The notes under the pieces: generated by a model
The model's database searches: none
What the model saw: only the letters and a program-made list of their open reading frames with translations
What the model was told of the DNA's origin: nothing
Part shown: positions 3,114 through 31,881 of the stretch, in pieces
Numbering within the stretch: position 1 is the stretch's first letter
Layout: each line of letters opens with the position of its first letter
Position numbers and translations under genes: made by a program
Virus record (IMG/VR): IMGVR_UViG_3300022934_000087
Coordinates: 1-32,666 of that record
Source: a virus
DNA length: 32,666 nt
Strand: one strand, 5' to 3'

Positions 3114-4697
3114 ATGGGACTGCGTTCTGCATGGCGCGAGCTTTGGCGCTCTAATCCTTCCCCGATGCCGCCGGCACGTAGCCGCATGTTTGCCGGTGCG
3201 CAGGCCAGCCGCCTGACGAATGACTGGGTTACATCCATCACGTCTGCCGACCAAGAGATCAAAGGCAGCCTGAAGCGTTTGCGTTCACGGTCCCGGCAGC
3301 TGGTCAGAGACAACGACTATTGCAGGAGCGCCATCCGGGTTGTCCGTAATTCAGTCGTTGGCACTGGCGTTCGGCTGCAAGCGCAGGTAAAGCGACAGCG
3401 TGGCGGTCGGCTTGATACCAGACTGAATGAGGCGATCGAAAAAGCCTGGTCGGAGTGGAGCAGAAAAGACAGCTGCAACACAGCGGGTCAGCTCTGTTTT
3501 GCCGACATTGAAAAACTGGCCGTTTCGTCGATGTGCGAAAGCGGCGAAGTTTTCATCCGCATCATCCGGCAGAAGTTTGGGCGTTCAAAGGTTAGTTTTG
3601 CCTTGGAGGTGCTGGAGGCGGATCAGCTGGATGAGGATTATCAACACCCTGCTAAGACACCGGGCAACGTCTGGAAGCTTGGTGTAGAGCTAGACAAATT
3701 TGGCCGGCCTGTTAATTACGCCTTTTTGACAAGGCACCCAGGAGACACGGCGTTCCCAACCCATAACCCGGACAGACGCCACATCATCGTTCCGGCCAAG
3801 GATGTAATCCATCTGTTTGATCGCACCTCAGCACGACCAGGCCAGACCCGCGGTGTGCCTTGGCTTGCTAGTGCAATGCAGCGCCTGCATCACCTAGACG
3901 GATGGGAGCAAGCGAGCGTTGTACGCGCCCGCGCAAGCTCTGCACTCATGGGCTTTATTCAGTCGCCCGAAGGTGAGCTAGATCCTGGCGGCGAGATCTT
4001 TGATGAGCAGCGCGTCACTGGGTTTGAGCCTGGGCAATTCAAGTATTTGCAGCCCGGCGAGACGGTCACAATCCCAGATATGGACAGCCCAACCGGCGAA
4101 TATGAGCCGTTTTTGCGGGCGCAGCTGCGGGCCCTGGGCGCAGGCGTTGGCTGTTCCTACGAATTGCTCAGCAACGATTACAGCCAGAGCAACTACAGCA
4201 GCAGCCGCCTAGCGCTTCTGCAGGACCGCGACAACTGGCGCAGCATCCAGCAGATGCTTAAAGATCAGTTCTACCAGCCCGTTTTTGAGGCTTGGCTTGA
4301 GATGGCAGTGCTTAGCGGCGCCTTAAATCTGCCTACTTACGAAACCGAGCCTGAGCGTTATGAGGCCGTTCGGTGGGTGTTCCGTGGTTACTCCTACGTT
4401 GACCCGCAAAAGGAAATCAACGCGCAGAAAGACGCTGTGCGCAGTGGCTTCAAAACGCTGGCTGATTGCGTCGCAGAAAACGGCGGCGATCTCGATGAGC
4501 TGCTGGTGGCCCGTCAGTCAGAACTGGCCAAGCTGGATGAGATGAACATCATCACCGACACCGATCCATCCGCTGTGAATGGCTCTGGCGCCAGCCAGTA
4601 CAAGCCAGTCAACACGGTTGACGCTTTCGGTGACACACCGGCCCCAACGGGCGACGATGCCGAAAACGTAAGCGAGCAGGAAAGTGGCAACTATTGA
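3114..4697 (+). CDS. Portal protein (lambda B family)
   Basis: Forms the dodecameric channel at one capsid vertex through which DNA enters and leaves, and on which the tail is attached. The 527 residues match lambda gpB (533). Family features include LRSRSRQLVRDNDYCRSAIR, then VVGTGVRLQ near residue 80, the LEVLEADQLDEDY stretch, VIHLFDRTSARPGQTRGVPWLA, and a conserved YSSSRLALLQDRDNWR near 365. Lambda B is cleaved near its N terminus during maturation; whether that happens here cannot be seen. GAGG at 3101-3104 precedes the ATG by 9 bases. The 3' end overlaps the GTG start of the capsid gene. Confidence 0.95.
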   Translation: MGLRSAWRELWRSNPSPMPPARSRMFAGAQASRLTNDWVTSITSADQEIKGSLKRLRSRSRQLVRDNDYCRSAIRVVRNSVVGTGVRLQAQVKRQRGGRLDTRLNEAIEKAWSEWSRKDSCNTAGQLCFADIEKLAVSSMCESGEVFIRIIRQKFGRSKVSFALEVLEADQLDEDYQHPAKTPGNVWKLGVELDKFGRPVNYAFLTRHPGDTAFPTHNPDRRHIIVPAKDVIHLFDRTSARPGQTRGVPWLASAMQRLHHLDGWEQASVVRARASSALMGFIQSPEGELDPGGEIFDEQRVTGFEPGQFKYLQPGETVTIPDMDSPTGEYEPFLRAQLRALGAGVGCSYELLSNDYSQSNYSSSRLALLQDRDNWRSIQQMLKDQFYQPVFEAWLEMAVLSGALNLPTYETEPERYEAVRWVFRGYSYVDPQKEINAQKDAVRSGFKTLADCVAENGGDLDELLVARQSELAKLDEMNIITDTDPSAVNGSGASQYKPVNTVDAFGDTPAPTGDDAENVSEQESGNY

Positions 4698-7221
4698 AGG
4701 CGTTGAGATTAACCTGATGCCCACTGAGGGCATGAAGGAAGAGGCGCAGCGTTACCGCGACTGGAAGGAGGAAGGAAACGCAGGCGGCACAGAGGTTGCA
4801 GCACGCAGGGCAACTCAAATCCTGAGCGGCAATGAGTTGGCTGCTGATGTTGTGATCGCCATGGCCGCTTGGTTTGCCCGCCATGAGGTTGATAAGCAGG
4901 GCGAGGGTTTCTCACCTGGAGAGGATGGTTTTCCAAGCCCTGGGCGTGTCGCATGGGCGGCATGGGGCGGAGATCCTGGGCAAGTGTGGGCGTCTAATAA
5001 GGCGGATAGAATCAAAGAAATACGCGACCGAACAATGGCCGACGATTTGGAATTGCGTTTAGATCTACGCGCTGAACCTGGCGATTTGAGTGTCGGCGAT
5101 TATGTCGAGTGGAACAGCTCAGGTGGAATGGCCAAAGGTCAGATTGATCGCATCGAGCGGGATGGCTCAATTAATGTGCCTGACTCTGAGTTCACAGTGA
5201 ATGGCGACGAAGATGACCCGGCCGCACTAATCACAGTGTTTCGGGAGACCGACGAGGGTTGGGAGTCAACAGACGTAAAGGTTGGCCATCGCTTCTCAAC
5301 GCTTACCAAGATTGAGGCACTGCGCCGCGGTCCTGCTCTCTATAAGCGAGCTGGTGAAACCCAGTTTGAGGAACAGGAAGACCGGACGATGGAGTTCAGC
5401 TTCAGCTCTGAGTATCCGGTAGAGCGTTCTTTTGGCTTGGAAGTGCTGAGCCATGACGACGACGCAGCAGACTTTGCCCGCCTAAATGACGGCGCACCGC
5501 TGCTGTTTAATCACGATATGGATCGCCCGATCGGTGTGGTGGAGCGTGCCTACGTTGACAAGGACAAAAAGAAAGGCGTGAGCCGTGTGCGCTTCAGCCG
5601 CAACGCATTTGCCCAAGAAATTTTGGCAGATGTGAAAGATGGAATTATGCGCAACATCTCCGTGGGATACAGGATTAAGGAGATGGAAGAACGCAATAGC
5701 GAGTTTGTAGCGACATCTTGGGAGCCTTACGAAATTTCGGTGGTTTCTGTTCCTGCTGACCCGCAAATTGGTGTTGGAAGATCATTGCTTCCAGACCCTA
5801 TTATTGCTGAAGGAAGTGCCGAACAGGCACCGCCTGCGGCTCGCGTCGCACCACTCACCCAAACCTCAACAGAGAAAATGTCTGAAGCACCCGACCTGAG
5901 CGTGGTGCGCGATGAAGCTTCCAAAAAGGCTGCTTCTTCTGAGCGCACCCGCATCCGTAACATCCAAGAGCTTTGCTCTAAGCACGACCTGCGCGATCTG
6001 GCTGAGCAGCTGATTGACAACGGCAGCAGCATTGACGTTGCCCGCGCCGCAGTTCTGGATCAAATCGGCTCTAAGCCGGTTGAAACCGTTTCCCCTGTGG
6101 ACCTGGACCACGGCACCCAGTCCCGTTACCAGATCATGGATGGCGTTCGCGCCCTGATCACTGGCGACTGGTCTTCCCACGGTGCCGGCCTTGTTCGTGA
6201 ACTCAGCCAAGAAGTTGCCCGTAGCTCCGGCCTCACCGCCACCAGCGAGCGCACTTTCTTTGTTCCGTTCTCTGCTCTGAGCCAACGCGCCACCTATGTG
6301 ACCTCTGGCGCAACCACTGGCGGCAACATTGTTGCTACCGATCTGCTGGCTGATGATTTCATCGAAGCCCTGCGGAACGCTTCCCCTGTGGTTGGCCTGG
6401 GCGTTCGCACCCTGACCGGCCTGATTGGTGATGTAGCAATCCCCCGCCGCTCTGGTGTTGCTTCCACCGCTTACCTGTCATCTGAGACCACTGCAATTAC
6501 GCAGGCTGAGTCCACCTTTGATCAGGTGACGATGAGCCCCAAGAACCTGGCAGCCCTGTCTAAGTACAGCCGCCAGACTCTGCTTCAGGCCACCCCTGGC
6601 ATTGAAGAGCTGATCCGTCGCGATCTCACCGATGGCATCAACACCGCCATCGACGCTGCAATCCTGAACGGCTCCGGTTCCTCCGGCCAACCCACCGGTA
6701 TCCGTAACACCTCCGGCATCGGTAGCGTGGCCATGGGTACGGACGGCGGTTCAATCACCCTTGAGAAGGTGGTTGACCTGGAAACCGAAATCACCCAGGA
6801 CAACGCAGCAGGCCCCAACATGGCCTATGTCACCAACGCCAAGGTGATGGGCGCCCTGAAGAAACTCCGTGCTGGTGGCTCTGCTGCTGGTGATGGCAGC
6901 TTCCTCTATAACGCCGACCTGACCGCTATCGGCCGCGGCCCAACCCCGCTGACCCTGAACGGTTACCCCATTGCCGTCACCAACGCTGTCCCCAGCAACC
7001 TGACTAAGGGCAGTAGCTCCGGCGTGTGCTCTGCACTCGTTGCCGGTGACTTCAGCCAGGCCATGCTTGGTTTCTACGGCAACGGCCTTGAGATCACCGT
7101 AGGCAACGATCAGGATGATTTCTCCAAGGCCCTGACTTCGGTTCGCGGCATCGTCAGCTTTGACGTTGCAGTTCGCCAAGCCACTGCCTTCGGTTCCATC
7201 GAAGACATCACCACCGCCTGA
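4684..7221 (+). CDS. Prohead protease fused to HK97-fold major capsid protein
   Basis: One 845-residue reading frame carries what are usually two or three proteins. Residues 15-115 form an N-terminal domain with GGTE at 34-37 and PSPGRVAWAAWGGDPGQVWA at 84-103. Residues 133-190 resemble a small Tudor/HVA1-like domain (VGDYVEWNSSGG, then DDPAALITVF). Residues 236-365 are an HK97-type (U35) prohead protease: catalytic His in FNHD (277), Ser in NISVGY (326), and YEISVVSVPADP after it. Residues 400-470 are helical and may act as the scaffold (delta domain). Residues 480-845 are the HK97-fold capsid protein. GTG 4684 is chosen as start for its overlap with the portal; ATG 4717 is possible. Internal ATG 5878 (Met399) could give the capsid part alone. 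Self-cleavage is expected but unseen. Confidence 0.9.
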   Translation: MATIEGVEINLMPTEGMKEEAQRYRDWKEEGNAGGTEVAARRATQILSGNELAADVVIAMAAWFARHEVDKQGEGFSPGEDGFPSPGRVAWAAWGGDPGQVWASNKADRIKEIRDRTMADDLELRLDLRAEPGDLSVGDYVEWNSSGGMAKGQIDRIERDGSINVPDSEFTVNGDEDDPAALITVFRETDEGWESTDVKVGHRFSTLTKIEALRRGPALYKRAGETQFEEQEDRTMEFSFSSEYPVERSFGLEVLSHDDDAADFARLNDGAPLLFNHDMDRPIGVVERAYVDKDKKKGVSRVRFSRNAFAQEILADVKDGIMRNISVGYRIKEMEERNSEFVATSWEPYEISVVSVPADPQIGVGRSLLPDPIIAEGSAEQAPPAARVAPLTQTSTEKMSEAPDLSVVRDEASKKAASSERTRIRNIQELCSKHDLRDLAEQLIDNGSSIDVARAAVLDQIGSKPVETVSPVDLDHGTQSRYQIMDGVRALITGDWSSHGAGLVRELSQEVARSSGLTATSERTFFVPFSALSQRATYVTSGATTGGNIVATDLLADDFIEALRNASPVVGLGVRTLTGLIGDVAIPRRSGVASTAYLSSETTAITQAESTFDQVTMSPKNLAALSKYSRQTLLQATPGIEELIRRDLTDGINTAIDAAILNGSGSSGQPTGIRNTSGIGSVAMGTDGGSITLEKVVDLETEITQDNAAGPNMAYVTNAKVMGALKKLRAGGSAAGDGSFLYNADLTAIGRGPTPLTLNGYPIAVTNAVPSNLTKGSSSGVCSALVAGDFSQAMLGFYGNGLEITVGNDQDDFSKALTSVRGIVSFDVAVRQATAFGSIEDITTA

Positions 7222-20250: not shown

Positions 20251-20475
20251 ATGCAAAAAGCCATCAACGCTCTCGCCGTTATTTCTTTTGGCCTGTCGGC
20301 TGGTATGTCGGCCCTGGCGATCTTTGTGGCGTTGAACGCGCCCAAGATGAAAGAGGCGGCGATTGAGAAAATTCAGGCTGAGGTGATGGTCCTAGTGATG
20401 GACGCCACAGCCAAGAAAATGCAGGGCATGATGCCGGTGGAGACTGGCCCCGCCTTGCCATTCAGTGCCCAGTAA
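20251..20475 (+). CDS. Small membrane protein of cyanophage type
   Basis: A 74-residue protein with one N-terminal membrane segment (INALAVISFGLSAGMSALAIFVAL, residues 4-27), then a charged amphipathic helix and a C terminus ending TGPALPFSAQ. Cyanophages often carry a small protein of this shape, with a similar TG.ALP ending, next to the larger membrane protein that follows here. The function is unknown to me. It starts 6 bases after the terminator T-run and overlaps the next gene by 11 bases. Confidence 0.75.
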   Translation: MQKAINALAVISFGLSAGMSALAIFVALNAPKMKEAAIEKIQAEVMVLVMDATAKKMQGMMPVETGPALPFSAQ

Positions 20476-29345: not shown

Positions 29346-29383
29346 GTTTCAAGGTGCGAGTGGGGCCATCTCTGGCCGGATCC

Positions 29384-29626: not shown

Positions 29627-30061
29627 CTAGCCCGCTTGATCAATGATGCTCTCAACAATGATCAAAGCACCGGGCCTTTCCCTTGGCCTGCAGTAACGAC
29701 GGATTGCGCGTAGATCAACCACTAAAACATCATCTCTAAATGCAATACCTGTGAGACTGTCAAGAACAGCACGGGCGCCTTTGTCAACGTCCATCTTGAT
29801 TTTGGTGTGATAGATCGGCGCGGACTTGCGCAATTCGCCATTGGGCGCATAATCCGCCAGCGGTCGCCTCATACGAAACTCAATCGCAACCCTGCACGGG
29901 CCATTAATCACATGGTCACAGCTAGCCCTGGCTTCCTTCCTTACCAGTTGACGCCAAGGCTCCAAACGCTTGCAGGTTTCGCGTAGAGCCCCGTATTTGG
30001 TCACAACTTTGCTGCCTTGGGGTGCTGGCTCCATGCCCTCAACAAGGATGGCAAATTTCAT
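29627..30061 (-). CDS. rusA: RusA-family Holliday junction resolvase
   Basis: Cuts four-way DNA junctions made by recombination or by replication of concatemers, keeping DNA fit for packaging. 144 residues from ATG 30061, against 120 for E. coli RusA. Family features: PAPQGSKVV near the start, then KMDVDKGARAVLDSLTGIAF (residues 89-108) with Asp91, Asp93 and Lys94, and RDDVLVVDL with Asp110 and Asp111. The acidic residues expected to bind metal are in place. A terminator-like hairpin ends 3 bases before this start. An alternative start at 30100 would put that hairpin inside the coding region (MRALGREARIFFA). Confidence 0.93.
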   Translation of the reverse strand: MKFAILVEGMEPAPQGSKVVTKYGALRETCKRLEPWRQLVRKEARASCDHVINGPCRVAIEFRMRRPLADYAPNGELRKSAPIYHTKIKMDVDKGARAVLDSLTGIAFRDDVLVVDLRAIRRYCRPRERPGALIIVESIIDQAG

Positions 30062-30064
30062 CGC

Positions 30065-30100
30065 AAAAAAAATGCGGGCTTCCCTTCCAAGGGCCCGCAT
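30065..30100 (-). terminator. Terminator or attenuator directly before rusA
   Basis: ATGCGGGC (30072-30079) pairs fully with GCCCGCAT (30093-30100). On the minus strand the stem is followed by eight T (30072-30065), then GCG and the rusA ATG. It would stop leftward transcription coming from the initiator region. As it touches the rusA start, it could also act as an attenuator of the leftward operon. Confidence 0.8.
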
Positions 30101-30128
30101 CGCTCGACGTGCACCAACAATTTAAGAC

Positions 30129-30950
30129 ATGGGATTGATTCCGCAAGGCATGGTTTTCACAACGCTTCCAACTGCACTAAGGGGCAAATTGCAGCCCAAT
30201 CAGTTGGCAGTTTTGTGGGTTGTTCAAAGTTACGAATTTGGCTGCCGTGGTTGTTGGCCAAGCCTGTCAACAATCGCAGCAGATGCAGGGCTGAGCGTAC
30301 GGAAAGCACGCGAGACGCTCGGGCAGCTTGAAAGCCTTGGATTCCTGCGCCGGCAGAAGCGAGCTAATCCAGATGGCGGCCAGACCTCAAACCTCTATCG
30401 GGTCACGTTTGCGCAGCTTGTGAAGGAGCAAAAGCCAGTGTTTATGCCCCCGGCATCTCGTGCCGCCCCCCCGGCAGAATCTGCCGCCCCCCCCGGCACA
30501 GATCGACAGGGCCCCCCGGCAGGATATGCCGCCAAAGAAGATCCAATAGAAGAAGATCCAATAGAAGAAGGTTTAGTTTCTAACGAAACTAAAGTCGCTA
30601 CAAAACCCAAAAAGCGGACCCGGCCGGAGTACAGCCAGACATTCCTCGGGTTTTGGAGCAGCTATCTCAAAATCCAGAAGCGAGCCAGCAGCCAATCCAA
30701 GCCCAGGGCATGGGATGAGTTCCGCAAGCTCTCCAGAGGCACCCAGGAGGCCCTAGAAGGCGCCTTAAGGGTGGCTATAGGGGCACAGGCCAGGGCAGAG
30801 ACAAACGGGGGCTTTGCAGCGCCTTTCCCGGACTGTTTCCGCTGGATCCGTGATGGACGGTTTGAGCAGCACCTAGAAACCGCCACAATGCACGCCCTAC
30901 GCACCCCATCTGCACGGGATACTCAAGCGCACGACTCCGACCCCTTCTGA
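30129..30950 (+). CDS. Replication initiator (lambda O-like), winged helix
   Basis: 273 residues. Residues 25-95 form a winged helix (HTH_36 type): QLAVLWVVQSYEFGCRGCWP, SLSTIAADAGLSVRKARETL, GQLESLGFLRRQKR and SNLYRVTF. A low-complexity linker follows (residues 105-150, with PPASRAAPPAESAAPP and EDPIEEDPIEE), coded by the repeated palindromes listed separately. The C-terminal domain (about 165-260) has FLGFWSSYLKIQKRASSQ and FRKLSRGTQEALEGALRVAI. In lambda O the N-terminal domain binds origin repeats inside the gene, and the C-terminal domain recruits the helicase loader; the same design is seen here. An in-frame ATG at 30150 is an alternative start. The stop overlaps the next gene (TGATG). 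Confidence 0.85.
   Translation: MGLIPQGMVFTTLPTALRGKLQPNQLAVLWVVQSYEFGCRGCWPSLSTIAADAGLSVRKARETLGQLESLGFLRRQKRANPDGGQTSNLYRVTFAQLVKEQKPVFMPPASRAAPPAESAAPPGTDRQGPPAGYAAKEDPIEEDPIEEGLVSNETKVATKPKKRTRPEYSQTFLGFWSSYLKIQKRASSQSKPRAWDEFRKLSRGTQEALEGALRVAIGAQARAETNGGFAAPFPDCFRWIRDGRFEQHLETATMHALRTPSARDTQAHDSDPF
30451..30570 (+). other. Candidate replication origin (iterons plus AT-rich repeat)
   Basis: Three copies of CGGCA-N5-TGCCG lie at 30451-30465, 30472-30486 and 30517-30531. A half-conserved fourth (CGGCA-N5-CGACA) is at 30494-30508. Starts are 21, 22 and 23 bp apart, about two helix turns, separated by C-runs. The second is perfectly palindromic with 7-base arms. Directly after come two exact 15-bp repeats gaagatccaatagaa (30537-30551 and 30552-30566) plus gaag, purine-rich on this strand. 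Lambda ori also has four palindromic iterons followed by an asymmetric AT-rich stretch, inside gene O. Confidence 0.75.
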
Positions 30951-31450
30951 TGGCGCCCTCTCACAAGCGCACCCAATCTCGGCAAAACACAGACTTCTCA
31001 GCGCCTCGCGTTGAGTGCATGGCCTGTTACGACACAGGCATCGTCAACAACTCCGACGGCCTGGTTTGGAACTATCTGCCCGATTACGACATCGACCCCA
31101 ACACAGGCAAACGCTGTGGCGGCTTAGATCTCGCGATCATCTGCCACTGCTCTGCGGCCTACGACACTTTTGACCACAACAACAGCACCACCCGCACCGG
31201 CTTCCGTACAAGCGACGAGGTGCGCACCACAGAGAACAACGGCCGCAATCAAGCCTTAGGCATCCTGATCAGCAAAGAGCACACCCGCGAAATTCACAGG
31301 GCACGCCGGATCTCTTGGGATCTGAGCGTCAAAGACATGCAGCGCGTGCGACAAACTGCAACGGCTGAGCAAAAGCCCCAGTTGCCTGCATACATTGAAA
31401 ACGTACGGGCTCAGCTGCTCGACGCCAAAAACCTATTGCCTGCGGTCTGA
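30950..31450 (+). CDS. Zinc-ribbon-like replication-region protein
   Basis: 166 residues. Cys23 and Cys26 (VECMACYDTGIV) with Cys65 and Cys67 (AIICHCSAAYD) form a likely zinc ribbon; Cys56 and His66 are nearby. The last 70 residues are helical (REIHRARRISWDLSVKDMQR, then AYIENVRAQLLDAKNLL). Its start is coupled to the initiator stop, the place of lambda P, the helicase loader. It lacks any visible AAA+ motif, and a P-like role is only inferred from position. It could equally be a DNA-binding accessory. Confidence 0.72.
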   Translation: MAPSHKRTQSRQNTDFSAPRVECMACYDTGIVNNSDGLVWNYLPDYDIDPNTGKRCGGLDLAIICHCSAAYDTFDHNNSTTRTGFRTSDEVRTTENNGRNQALGILISKEHTREIHRARRISWDLSVKDMQRVRQTATAEQKPQLPAYIENVRAQLLDAKNLLPAV

Positions 31451-31454
31451 CTGA

Positions 31455-31646
31455 ATGGATTTTGTATCAACCCGGCAGGGCCCCGTAGTGGATCGCCTGC
31501 TGAAGCTTTGCGATGAGACCGGCGCCGTCATGGCTGCCGTACAAGACAACTCACAAGAGGAACAAATCAGAATCCCTCAACGTGTGATTACTAAGCTCAA
31601 CATCCTCAAAAAAGAAATCAACAATGTCCTCTCAGAATCTGTCTAA
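31455..31646 (+). CDS. Small helical protein, 63 aa
   Basis: DFVSTRQGPVVDRLLKLCDE, then TGAVMAAVQDNSQEEQIRIP and QRVITKLNILKKEINNVLSE. It starts 4 bases after the previous stop and overlaps the next gene by 23 bases, so it sits in a tight operon. It is helical and soluble, with a last helix KLNILKKEINNVL that could be a short coiled coil. No family is recognised. Confidence 0.66.
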   Translation: MDFVSTRQGPVVDRLLKLCDETGAVMAAVQDNSQEEQIRIPQRVITKLNILKKEINNVLSESV

Positions 31647-31881
31647 CAAGTTCACCATTCAGCTAACAGATGAGCAGACCGCTGCCATTGATCGCATGGC
31701 TGAACGAAACCAAACAACTAGAGCAGCAGAAATTAGAACTGCTGTAGAGCGTCATGGCACTATCAGCCCTGATCGGTTCAACGCGGTTTCGCGTGCTATT
31801 CATCAGCAGTTTCATGGCTACCTAAGCCAGTCTCAGGCCACGCACATCGCAGCGATAGCCGTAAACGCCATTTACGCTTAG
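31624..31881 (+). CDS. Ribbon-helix-helix-like DNA-binding protein, 85 aa
   Basis: Residues 7-45 have the RHH (Arc/CopG) plan: a strand NKFTIQLTDEQ, then helix TAAIDRMAERN and helix TTRAAEIRTAVERHG. RHH proteins bind DNA as dimers through the N-terminal strand pair and are often autoregulatory repressors or antitoxins; no toxin partner is evident. The C-terminal half (FNAVSRAIHQQFHGYLSQSQ and HIAAIAVNAIYA) is helical and may mediate higher oligomers. It may regulate the rightward replication and late operon. Confidence 0.75.
   Translation: MSSQNLSNKFTIQLTDEQTAAIDRMAERNQTTRAAEIRTAVERHGTISPDRFNAVSRAIHQQFHGYLSQSQATHIAAIAVNAIYA

Follow-up and report, generated by a model that had tools for sequence, protein, structure and literature searches.

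The DNA analysed in this study (hereafter the window) covers positions 1 to 32,666 of IMG/VR virus record IMGVR_UViG_3300022934_000087. Judged from its sequence and from that of its relatives, it very probably contains a lambda-type replication origin, in which a winged-helix initiator carries iterons in the DNA coding for its own linker and an AT-rich region for strand opening lies adjacent to them. The features of the locus are collected in Table 1.

Table 1. Positions of the features of the putative origin, its initiator and the neighboring genes in the window.
Feature	Position	Strand	Evidence
O-like gene for the replication initiator (273 aa), comprising an N-terminal winged helix, a linker (disordered) and a helical domain at the C terminus	30129-30950	+	Pfam, PHROG, AlphaFold2
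Winged-helix DNA-binding domain, aa 23-92	30195-30404	+	AlphaFold2, pLDDT mostly >80; fold comparison
Predicted recognition helix, aa 57-70	30297-30338	+	Partial Mantel, tree, residue table
Low-confidence (presumed disordered) linker, aa 96-158, with the putative origin as its coding DNA	30414-30602	+	pLDDT <50
Iteron 1, CGGCATCTCGTGCCG	30451-30465	.	Sequence, motif search, array score
Iteron 2, CGGCAGAATCTGCCG	30472-30486	.	Sequence, motif search, array score
Iteron 3, CGGCACAGATCGACA, right arm degenerate, different reading frame	30494-30508	.	Sequence, array score
Iteron 4, CGGCAGGATATGCCG	30517-30531	.	Sequence, motif search, array score
Three inter-iteron spacers, C/G tracts, family-wide	30466-30471, 30487-30493, 30509-30516 (in 30466-30516)	.	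Run length vs shuffles
AT-rich, A-strand-asymmetric block with tandem 15-bp repeats, presumed unwinding element	30534-30573	+	Composition, shuffles
Two exact AAGAAGATCCAATAG repeats, 15 bp, A-rich	30535-30549 and 30550-30564
Next gene, phrog_35089, CxxC...CxC motif	30950-31450	+	1-nt overlap with initiator stop (TGATG)
RusA-like resolvase, divergent from initiator	29627-30100	-	Pfam RusA E 2.6e-10

The initiator gene and its product

Profile searches place the product of the gene among phage replication initiators. It matched Pfam HTH_36 (E 4.4e-9), PHROG 270, a replication initiation protein family (E 1.6e-21), and the O-like PHROGs 391 (E 8.7e-17), 678 (E 2e-12) and 345 (E 1.7e-6). The last three profiles are common to the window initiator and lambda O, which matched them with E-values of 2.7e-39, 1.7e-35 and 5.2e-17, respectively, and both proteins thus fall into the O-like family. 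At a threshold of E 0.1, HTH_36 was the only Pfam match of the window initiator and Phage_rep_O (PF04492), the family matched by lambda O, was not among its hits.

In the AlphaFold2 model, the N-terminal domain has helices at residues 23-38, 46-53 and 57-70 and wing strands at 73-79 and 86-92, and a C-terminal helical domain spans residues 170-254. Fold comparison placed the first domain among winged helices, with the N-terminal domain of DnaD (2v79) at Foldseek rank 1 (Z 9.7). The iterons are encoded by approximately residues 108-135, within the low-confidence linker of the model. As in lambdoid origins, the array therefore sits in the initiator gene between the DNA-binding and C-terminal domains, which is where the earlier note on this DNA had put it.

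The gap between the divergent rusA and initiator genes is 28 bp in the window (30101-30128) and 5 bp in the Prochlorococcus phage MED4-184. Given such a short gap, the initiator promoter would lie inside rusA or transcription would come from elsewhere. In phage MED4-117 (NC_020857.1, locus 5001-5769), the initiator is annotated as two ORFs (161 aa and a second frame). The split is due to a frameshift downstream of the array, either a sequencing error or a real break, and the gene of the near-twin MED4-184 is intact.

A phased array of inverted repeats

Three dyads that match CGGCA-N5-TGCCG perfectly and one that is degenerate follow one another in steps of 21, 22 and 23 bp and are succeeded by two 15-bp repeats, exactly at the coordinates at which the earlier note had reported three palindromes and a half-conserved copy. 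The whole array lies inside the initiator gene together with the A-rich repeats. Searching the 32.7-kb window for CCGGCA-N5-TGCCG returned the three array dyads as the perfect matches and none elsewhere. The iteron centers contain no A-tracts. Iteron plasmids such as P1, F and RK2 resemble the window in having phased initiator sites that adjoin an AT-rich region, but they are characterized by direct, non-palindromic repeats, whereas the iterons of the window are inverted-repeat dyads. About four hyphenated inverted repeats in a regular, phased array, as seen here, are the arrangement of lambdoid origins.

As the array score we took that of the best run of four 5-N5-5 dyads with one common half-site and steps of 20-25 bp (maximum 40), and compared it with the scores of synonymous codon shuffles, in which protein and codon usage are preserved. 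The window reached 37 out of 40, as compared to a mean of 29.5 (sd 1.1) and a maximum of 35 among 800 shuffles. Lambda gene O, which served as a positive control, scored 35 by the same measure with a maximum of 30 in 200 shuffles, and the scoring recovered positions within the annotated ITN1-4. Neither ORF contains a chain with a higher score than its array, which starts at ORF nt 351 in lambda O versus 323 in the window. The proposal of the earlier note that the locus follows the plan of lambda ori is supported by this control, by the shared 5-N5-5 geometry and by the A-rich block on the same strand.

Relatives keep the DNA and not the peptide

Relatives were drawn from viral contigs and a few public phage records and comprise 154 distinct initiator genes that are complete or almost so. 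A total of 114 of the 154 scored above all 12 of their own synonymous shuffles, and in these the array mostly starts at ORF nt 310-346 (0-based) with steps of 20-23 bp. The remaining 40 fail the shuffle test, their dyads being too degenerate or, by eye, having a shorter first step; an array is plausible in these genes as well. Distant relatives retain the architecture with other half-sites, and the half-sites found by clade are CGGCA, TRGCA, GGGCA, GTGCA, GTGTC, RTGAC, GTMGT and GTNCA. When bacterial genomes were searched for the initiator, the single match was a 10-kb contig in a Flavobacteriaceae MAG (PACV01000065.1), which is probably viral and was misassigned in binning.

The clade of the window consists of 24 sequences of CGGCA type with 96 iteron copies. 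Conservation is 95-100% at the ten arm positions (84% for the outermost right base) while the five central positions are variable. Of the 71 perfect motifs present in 136.7 kb of this clade, every one is located inside an array. The copies occupy all three reading phases (47, 26 and 23 copies) and the peptides that they encode, such as PAGDAA, PGRKCR and RQMVPD, are unrelated. The earlier note had suggested weighing the palindrome bases against the Pro/Ala linker in homologues; the peptide turned out to be lost and the palindrome bases kept across the three frames, with 325 of 335 arm bases in third codon positions matching.

This result bears directly on a different explanation, namely that the repeat exists at the protein level as a Pro/Ala linker repeat (or is a slipped-strand repeat) and that the palindromes are a by-product of coding. 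Copies 1, 2 and 4 of the window do share a frame and read PPAxxAA, and the earlier note had described a PPA.xAA repeat that must serve as both protein linker and site. That part of the note does not hold in general, since copy 3 of the window lies in another frame (PPGTDRQG), relatives with 22-bp spacing read successive copies of the same DNA in all three frames as unrelated peptides, and other clades combine the same architecture with other linkers. There is no conserved peptide which such a dual duty could serve. The array is also lost in synonymous shuffles. Frame rotation and the shuffles together rule out the protein repeat, to which we attach next to no probability.

The AT-rich block and the spacers

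An adjoining block of ~40 bp that is AT-rich and strand-asymmetric is a further property which the locus shares with lambdoid origins. Its AT content lies above that of synonymous shuffles, in the window at 67.5% versus 51% (maximum 62.5%). Across 76 sequences, the 40 bp past iteron 4 average 82% AT and are AT-richer than the array and the gene in every case (76/76), and the relatives carry A on the coding strand, like lambda. A 15-bp tandem repeat is present in the block of several clades (GAACTAAATACAAAA and variants). The exact 15-bp repeat of the window was considered as independent proof and rejected as such; it was reached in 19 of 2000 synonymous shuffles, is only mildly unusual alone and is given a supporting role.

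The spacers between the iterons are enriched in uninterrupted C/G runs. In 28 representatives, the longest run per spacer is 4.80, compared to 3.42 in synonymous shuffles, and the runs consist of C in some clades and of G in others. The linkers of two relatives (L110 and L150) mix C-run and G-run spacers inside one array and, from these two, the strand of the tract seems to be of no apparent importance.

The position of the array and of the block can also be set against the possibility that the dyads are an operator array used by the initiator, or by some other protein of winged-helix type, to repress the initiator gene, with the origin located elsewhere. Palindromic operators are common targets of winged-helix proteins, and the top structural neighbors of the initiator include the MarR and LexA repressors. 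However, the array begins ~320 bp into the gene, not at a promoter, and further perfect copies are absent both from the window and from the clade loci. In addition, sequences with clear arrays always have an AT-rich block beyond coding need 3′ of the array, and the protein family is one of replication initiation. We therefore regard an operator array as improbable.

Half-sites track the recognition helix

Differences in iteron sequence follow differences in the predicted recognition helix of the initiator. In a partial Mantel test with the remainder of the N-terminal domain and the whole C-terminal domain as controls, iteron distance correlated with distance over residues 56-64 (partial r 0.476), while the maximum in 300 permutations was 0.061. 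The best stretch of nine residues outside the linker was 58-66 and the best single column was residue 58. Residues 57, 58 and 61, with which the predicted helix begins, track the half-site type: Arg61 is found with CGGCA (24/24), Gln61 with T[AG]GCA (17/17), His61 with GGGCA (3/3) and Ser58 with GTGTC (30/30), and Asp58 goes with GT[CA]G-type sites. These pairings suggest a code in which Arg61 would specify C, Gln61 T and His61 G at half-site position 1, with Asp, Ser or Arg58 possibly specifying the inner bases.

On a tree from which the helix residues and the linker were omitted, the half-site type changes at least 14 times. Phylogenetically independent pairs went in the expected direction in 5/5 (or 4/5 plus one tie), 3/3, 5/5, 2/2 and 2/2 cases with none against, numbers which should be read with the caveat that the helix residues were chosen after data inspection and that each single pair set is too small for p 0.05. 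Individual relatives illustrate the switch. L010 and L016 do not differ over aa 1-50 and share 97% identity in the C domain, and L010 has Asp58 with a GTCGT half-site versus Arg58 with a GTGCA half-site in L016. L059 belongs inside the CGGCA clade (its C domain is 85% identical to that of L055), yet it has Arg57-Arg58 and GTGCA iterons. The GTGCA half-site arose twice on unrelated backgrounds, in L059 and, in a distant clade, in L016, both times with Arg57-Arg58. Since only ~130 bp separate the helix and the array, co-transfer by recombination is expected to contribute to joint switching, but the recurrence of one residue-base pairing on both backgrounds is not what co-transfer alone would predict.

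The same pattern speaks to a role of the repeats in RNA, as a row of short mRNA hairpins that might, for example, slow translation between the domains. Each dyad could fold into a stem of 5 bp closed by a loop of 5 nt, but a role in RNA leaves unexplained why each phage has a single half-site that tracks the residues of the recognition helix, and we consider hairpins very improbable.

Neighboring genes and genome setting

In the window as in lambda, the initiator gene lies directly upstream of a second small gene, which is P (phrog_109) in lambda and phrog_35089 in the window; no P-type helicase loader was found downstream of the initiator. A gene of the phrog_35089 family is located 3′ of the initiator in nearly all of 45 representatives. 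Its product has four invariant cysteines (C23, C26, C65 and C67) and a predicted fold with a pLDDT of 85. No relative was detected in Pfam, PDB sequences or PDB folds, and comparison with predicted viral structures gave three close matches, none of them named. By its position, this protein is a candidate for the part that lambda P plays in recruiting the helicase.

The genes scanned in the 32.7-kb record include lambda-type packaging and tail genes, an exonuclease, a Rad52-like annealing protein and RusA, and no DnaB, primase or polymerase was recognisable among them. The portal (3114-4694) is 53-54% identical to those of the Synechococcus phages S-CBS1, S-CBS3 and S-LBS1. For the replication pair (30129-31450), close matches among named phages were limited to MED4-184, P-HS2 and MED4-117, and the pair was not found in S-CBS phages. 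Because both sets of matches are cyanophages, we infer a cyanobacterial host, living in the ocean or in a lake. The window is a mosaic, with a Synechococcus-phage-like portal and a Prochlorococcus-phage-like initiator pair.

The record also carries a phrog_568 ‘plasmid stability’ gene (20251-20475), a name also given to a gene in MED4-184, and Pfam identifies a ribbon-helix-helix protein near the origin (31624-31881). Both are possible partition or regulatory parts, and their presence would fit a reading of the array as a parS-like partition or centromere site for stable inheritance. Against a partition site, the iterons co-vary with the recognition helix of the initiator itself and no ParA was found among the genes scanned, which makes it extremely unlikely.

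GC skew was also considered, as the earlier note had looked to a skew change near the array, and proved uninformative. The cumulative maximum falls at 29365 in the window, but the curve of MED4-184 rises throughout. Skew gave no consistent signal, probably follows gene strand and was discarded as origin evidence.

Comparison with known origins

The closest parallel is the ori of phage lambda, which lies in gene O and has four hyphenated 5-N5-5 dyads at 20-24 bp steps in linker-coding DNA and an A-rich block of ~40 bp 3′ of the iterons on the same strand (PMC5043065; PMC6022878). The iteron sequences are unrelated. In lambda, the half-sites are joined by adenines, which are held to bend the DNA (PMC6022878), whereas the window has variable centers and C/G-tract spacers instead of adenine joints. 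The Stx phages P27 and 933W likewise have iterons and an AT-rich tract inside the O gene (PMC7466680) but differ from the window in having six iterons, a lambda-family O and an enterobacterial host.

Among phages with a homologous pair, the Prochlorococcus siphoviruses MED4-184, P-HS2 and MED4-117 have the initiator and the downstream gene in the same order as in the window. Initiator identity to the window is ~31% over 92% for MED4-184 and P-HS2, and 41% over the aligned 66% for MED4-117. Their linkers contain weaker GTNCA-type dyads, with a half-site unlike that of the window, and an AT-rich block. No description of the origin of these three phages was found in the literature searched.

Discussion

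None of the operator, centromere, hairpin and peptide-repeat readings accounts for all observations. Under the lambda-type origin that we favor, theta replication would start within the coding sequence of the phage's own initiator, presumably as the sole origin. The N-terminal winged helix would bind the four hyphenated 15-bp palindromes, probably as a dimer with one subunit per half-site. The co-variation of iterons and recognition helix gives indirect support to such specific binding. With palindrome centers approximately two helical turns apart (21-23 bp), the bound subunits could wrap the DNA into an O-some-like complex which would strain and open the A-rich block directly downstream. The C-terminal domain and the product of the next gene may then recruit host DnaB at the opened block; recruitment from the host is proposed because the phage lacks a recognisable replicative helicase, primase or polymerase. 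In lambda, the pathway likewise runs from dimers on dyads through the O-some and strand opening to helicase loading (PMC5043065; PMC7466680).

That an origin can lie inside its initiator gene is already known from lambda and its relatives. What is new, as far as the literature searched shows, is its presence in small cyanophages, the many switched specificities which can be read against the helix, the C/G-tract spacers and the unrelated partner gene. Like the earlier note, which knew of no such case, we found no iteron origin described in a small cyanophage in a literature search that included the S-LBS1 cyanosiphovirus paper and covered subscription journals thinly; the literature match for cyanophage and iteron origin concerns the Vibrio phage ICP1. 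A broader proposition, to which we would give about an even chance, is that these loci make up a large and as yet undescribed group of lambda-type origins among the siphoviruses of picocyanobacteria, where three to four helix residues and the four iterons are re-specified together according to a readable code and phrog_35089 replaces lambda P.

As far as our searches show, the start of replication in the small siphoviruses of Prochlorococcus and Synechococcus is undescribed. The window provides an exact target of 120 bp, and comparable targets exist in P-HS2, a virulent phage available in culture, and in the relatives of P-HS2. The relatives also form a natural series of initiator-origin pairs, some of them near-identical outside the helix, and this series would allow origin specificity to be read without design. 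The cyanobacterial replicative helicase may be recruited by a new route, for which the conserved partner gene is a candidate. The findings suggest that the origin-in-initiator plan, in which both travel together, is used and has been repeatedly re-specified in abundant aquatic phages.
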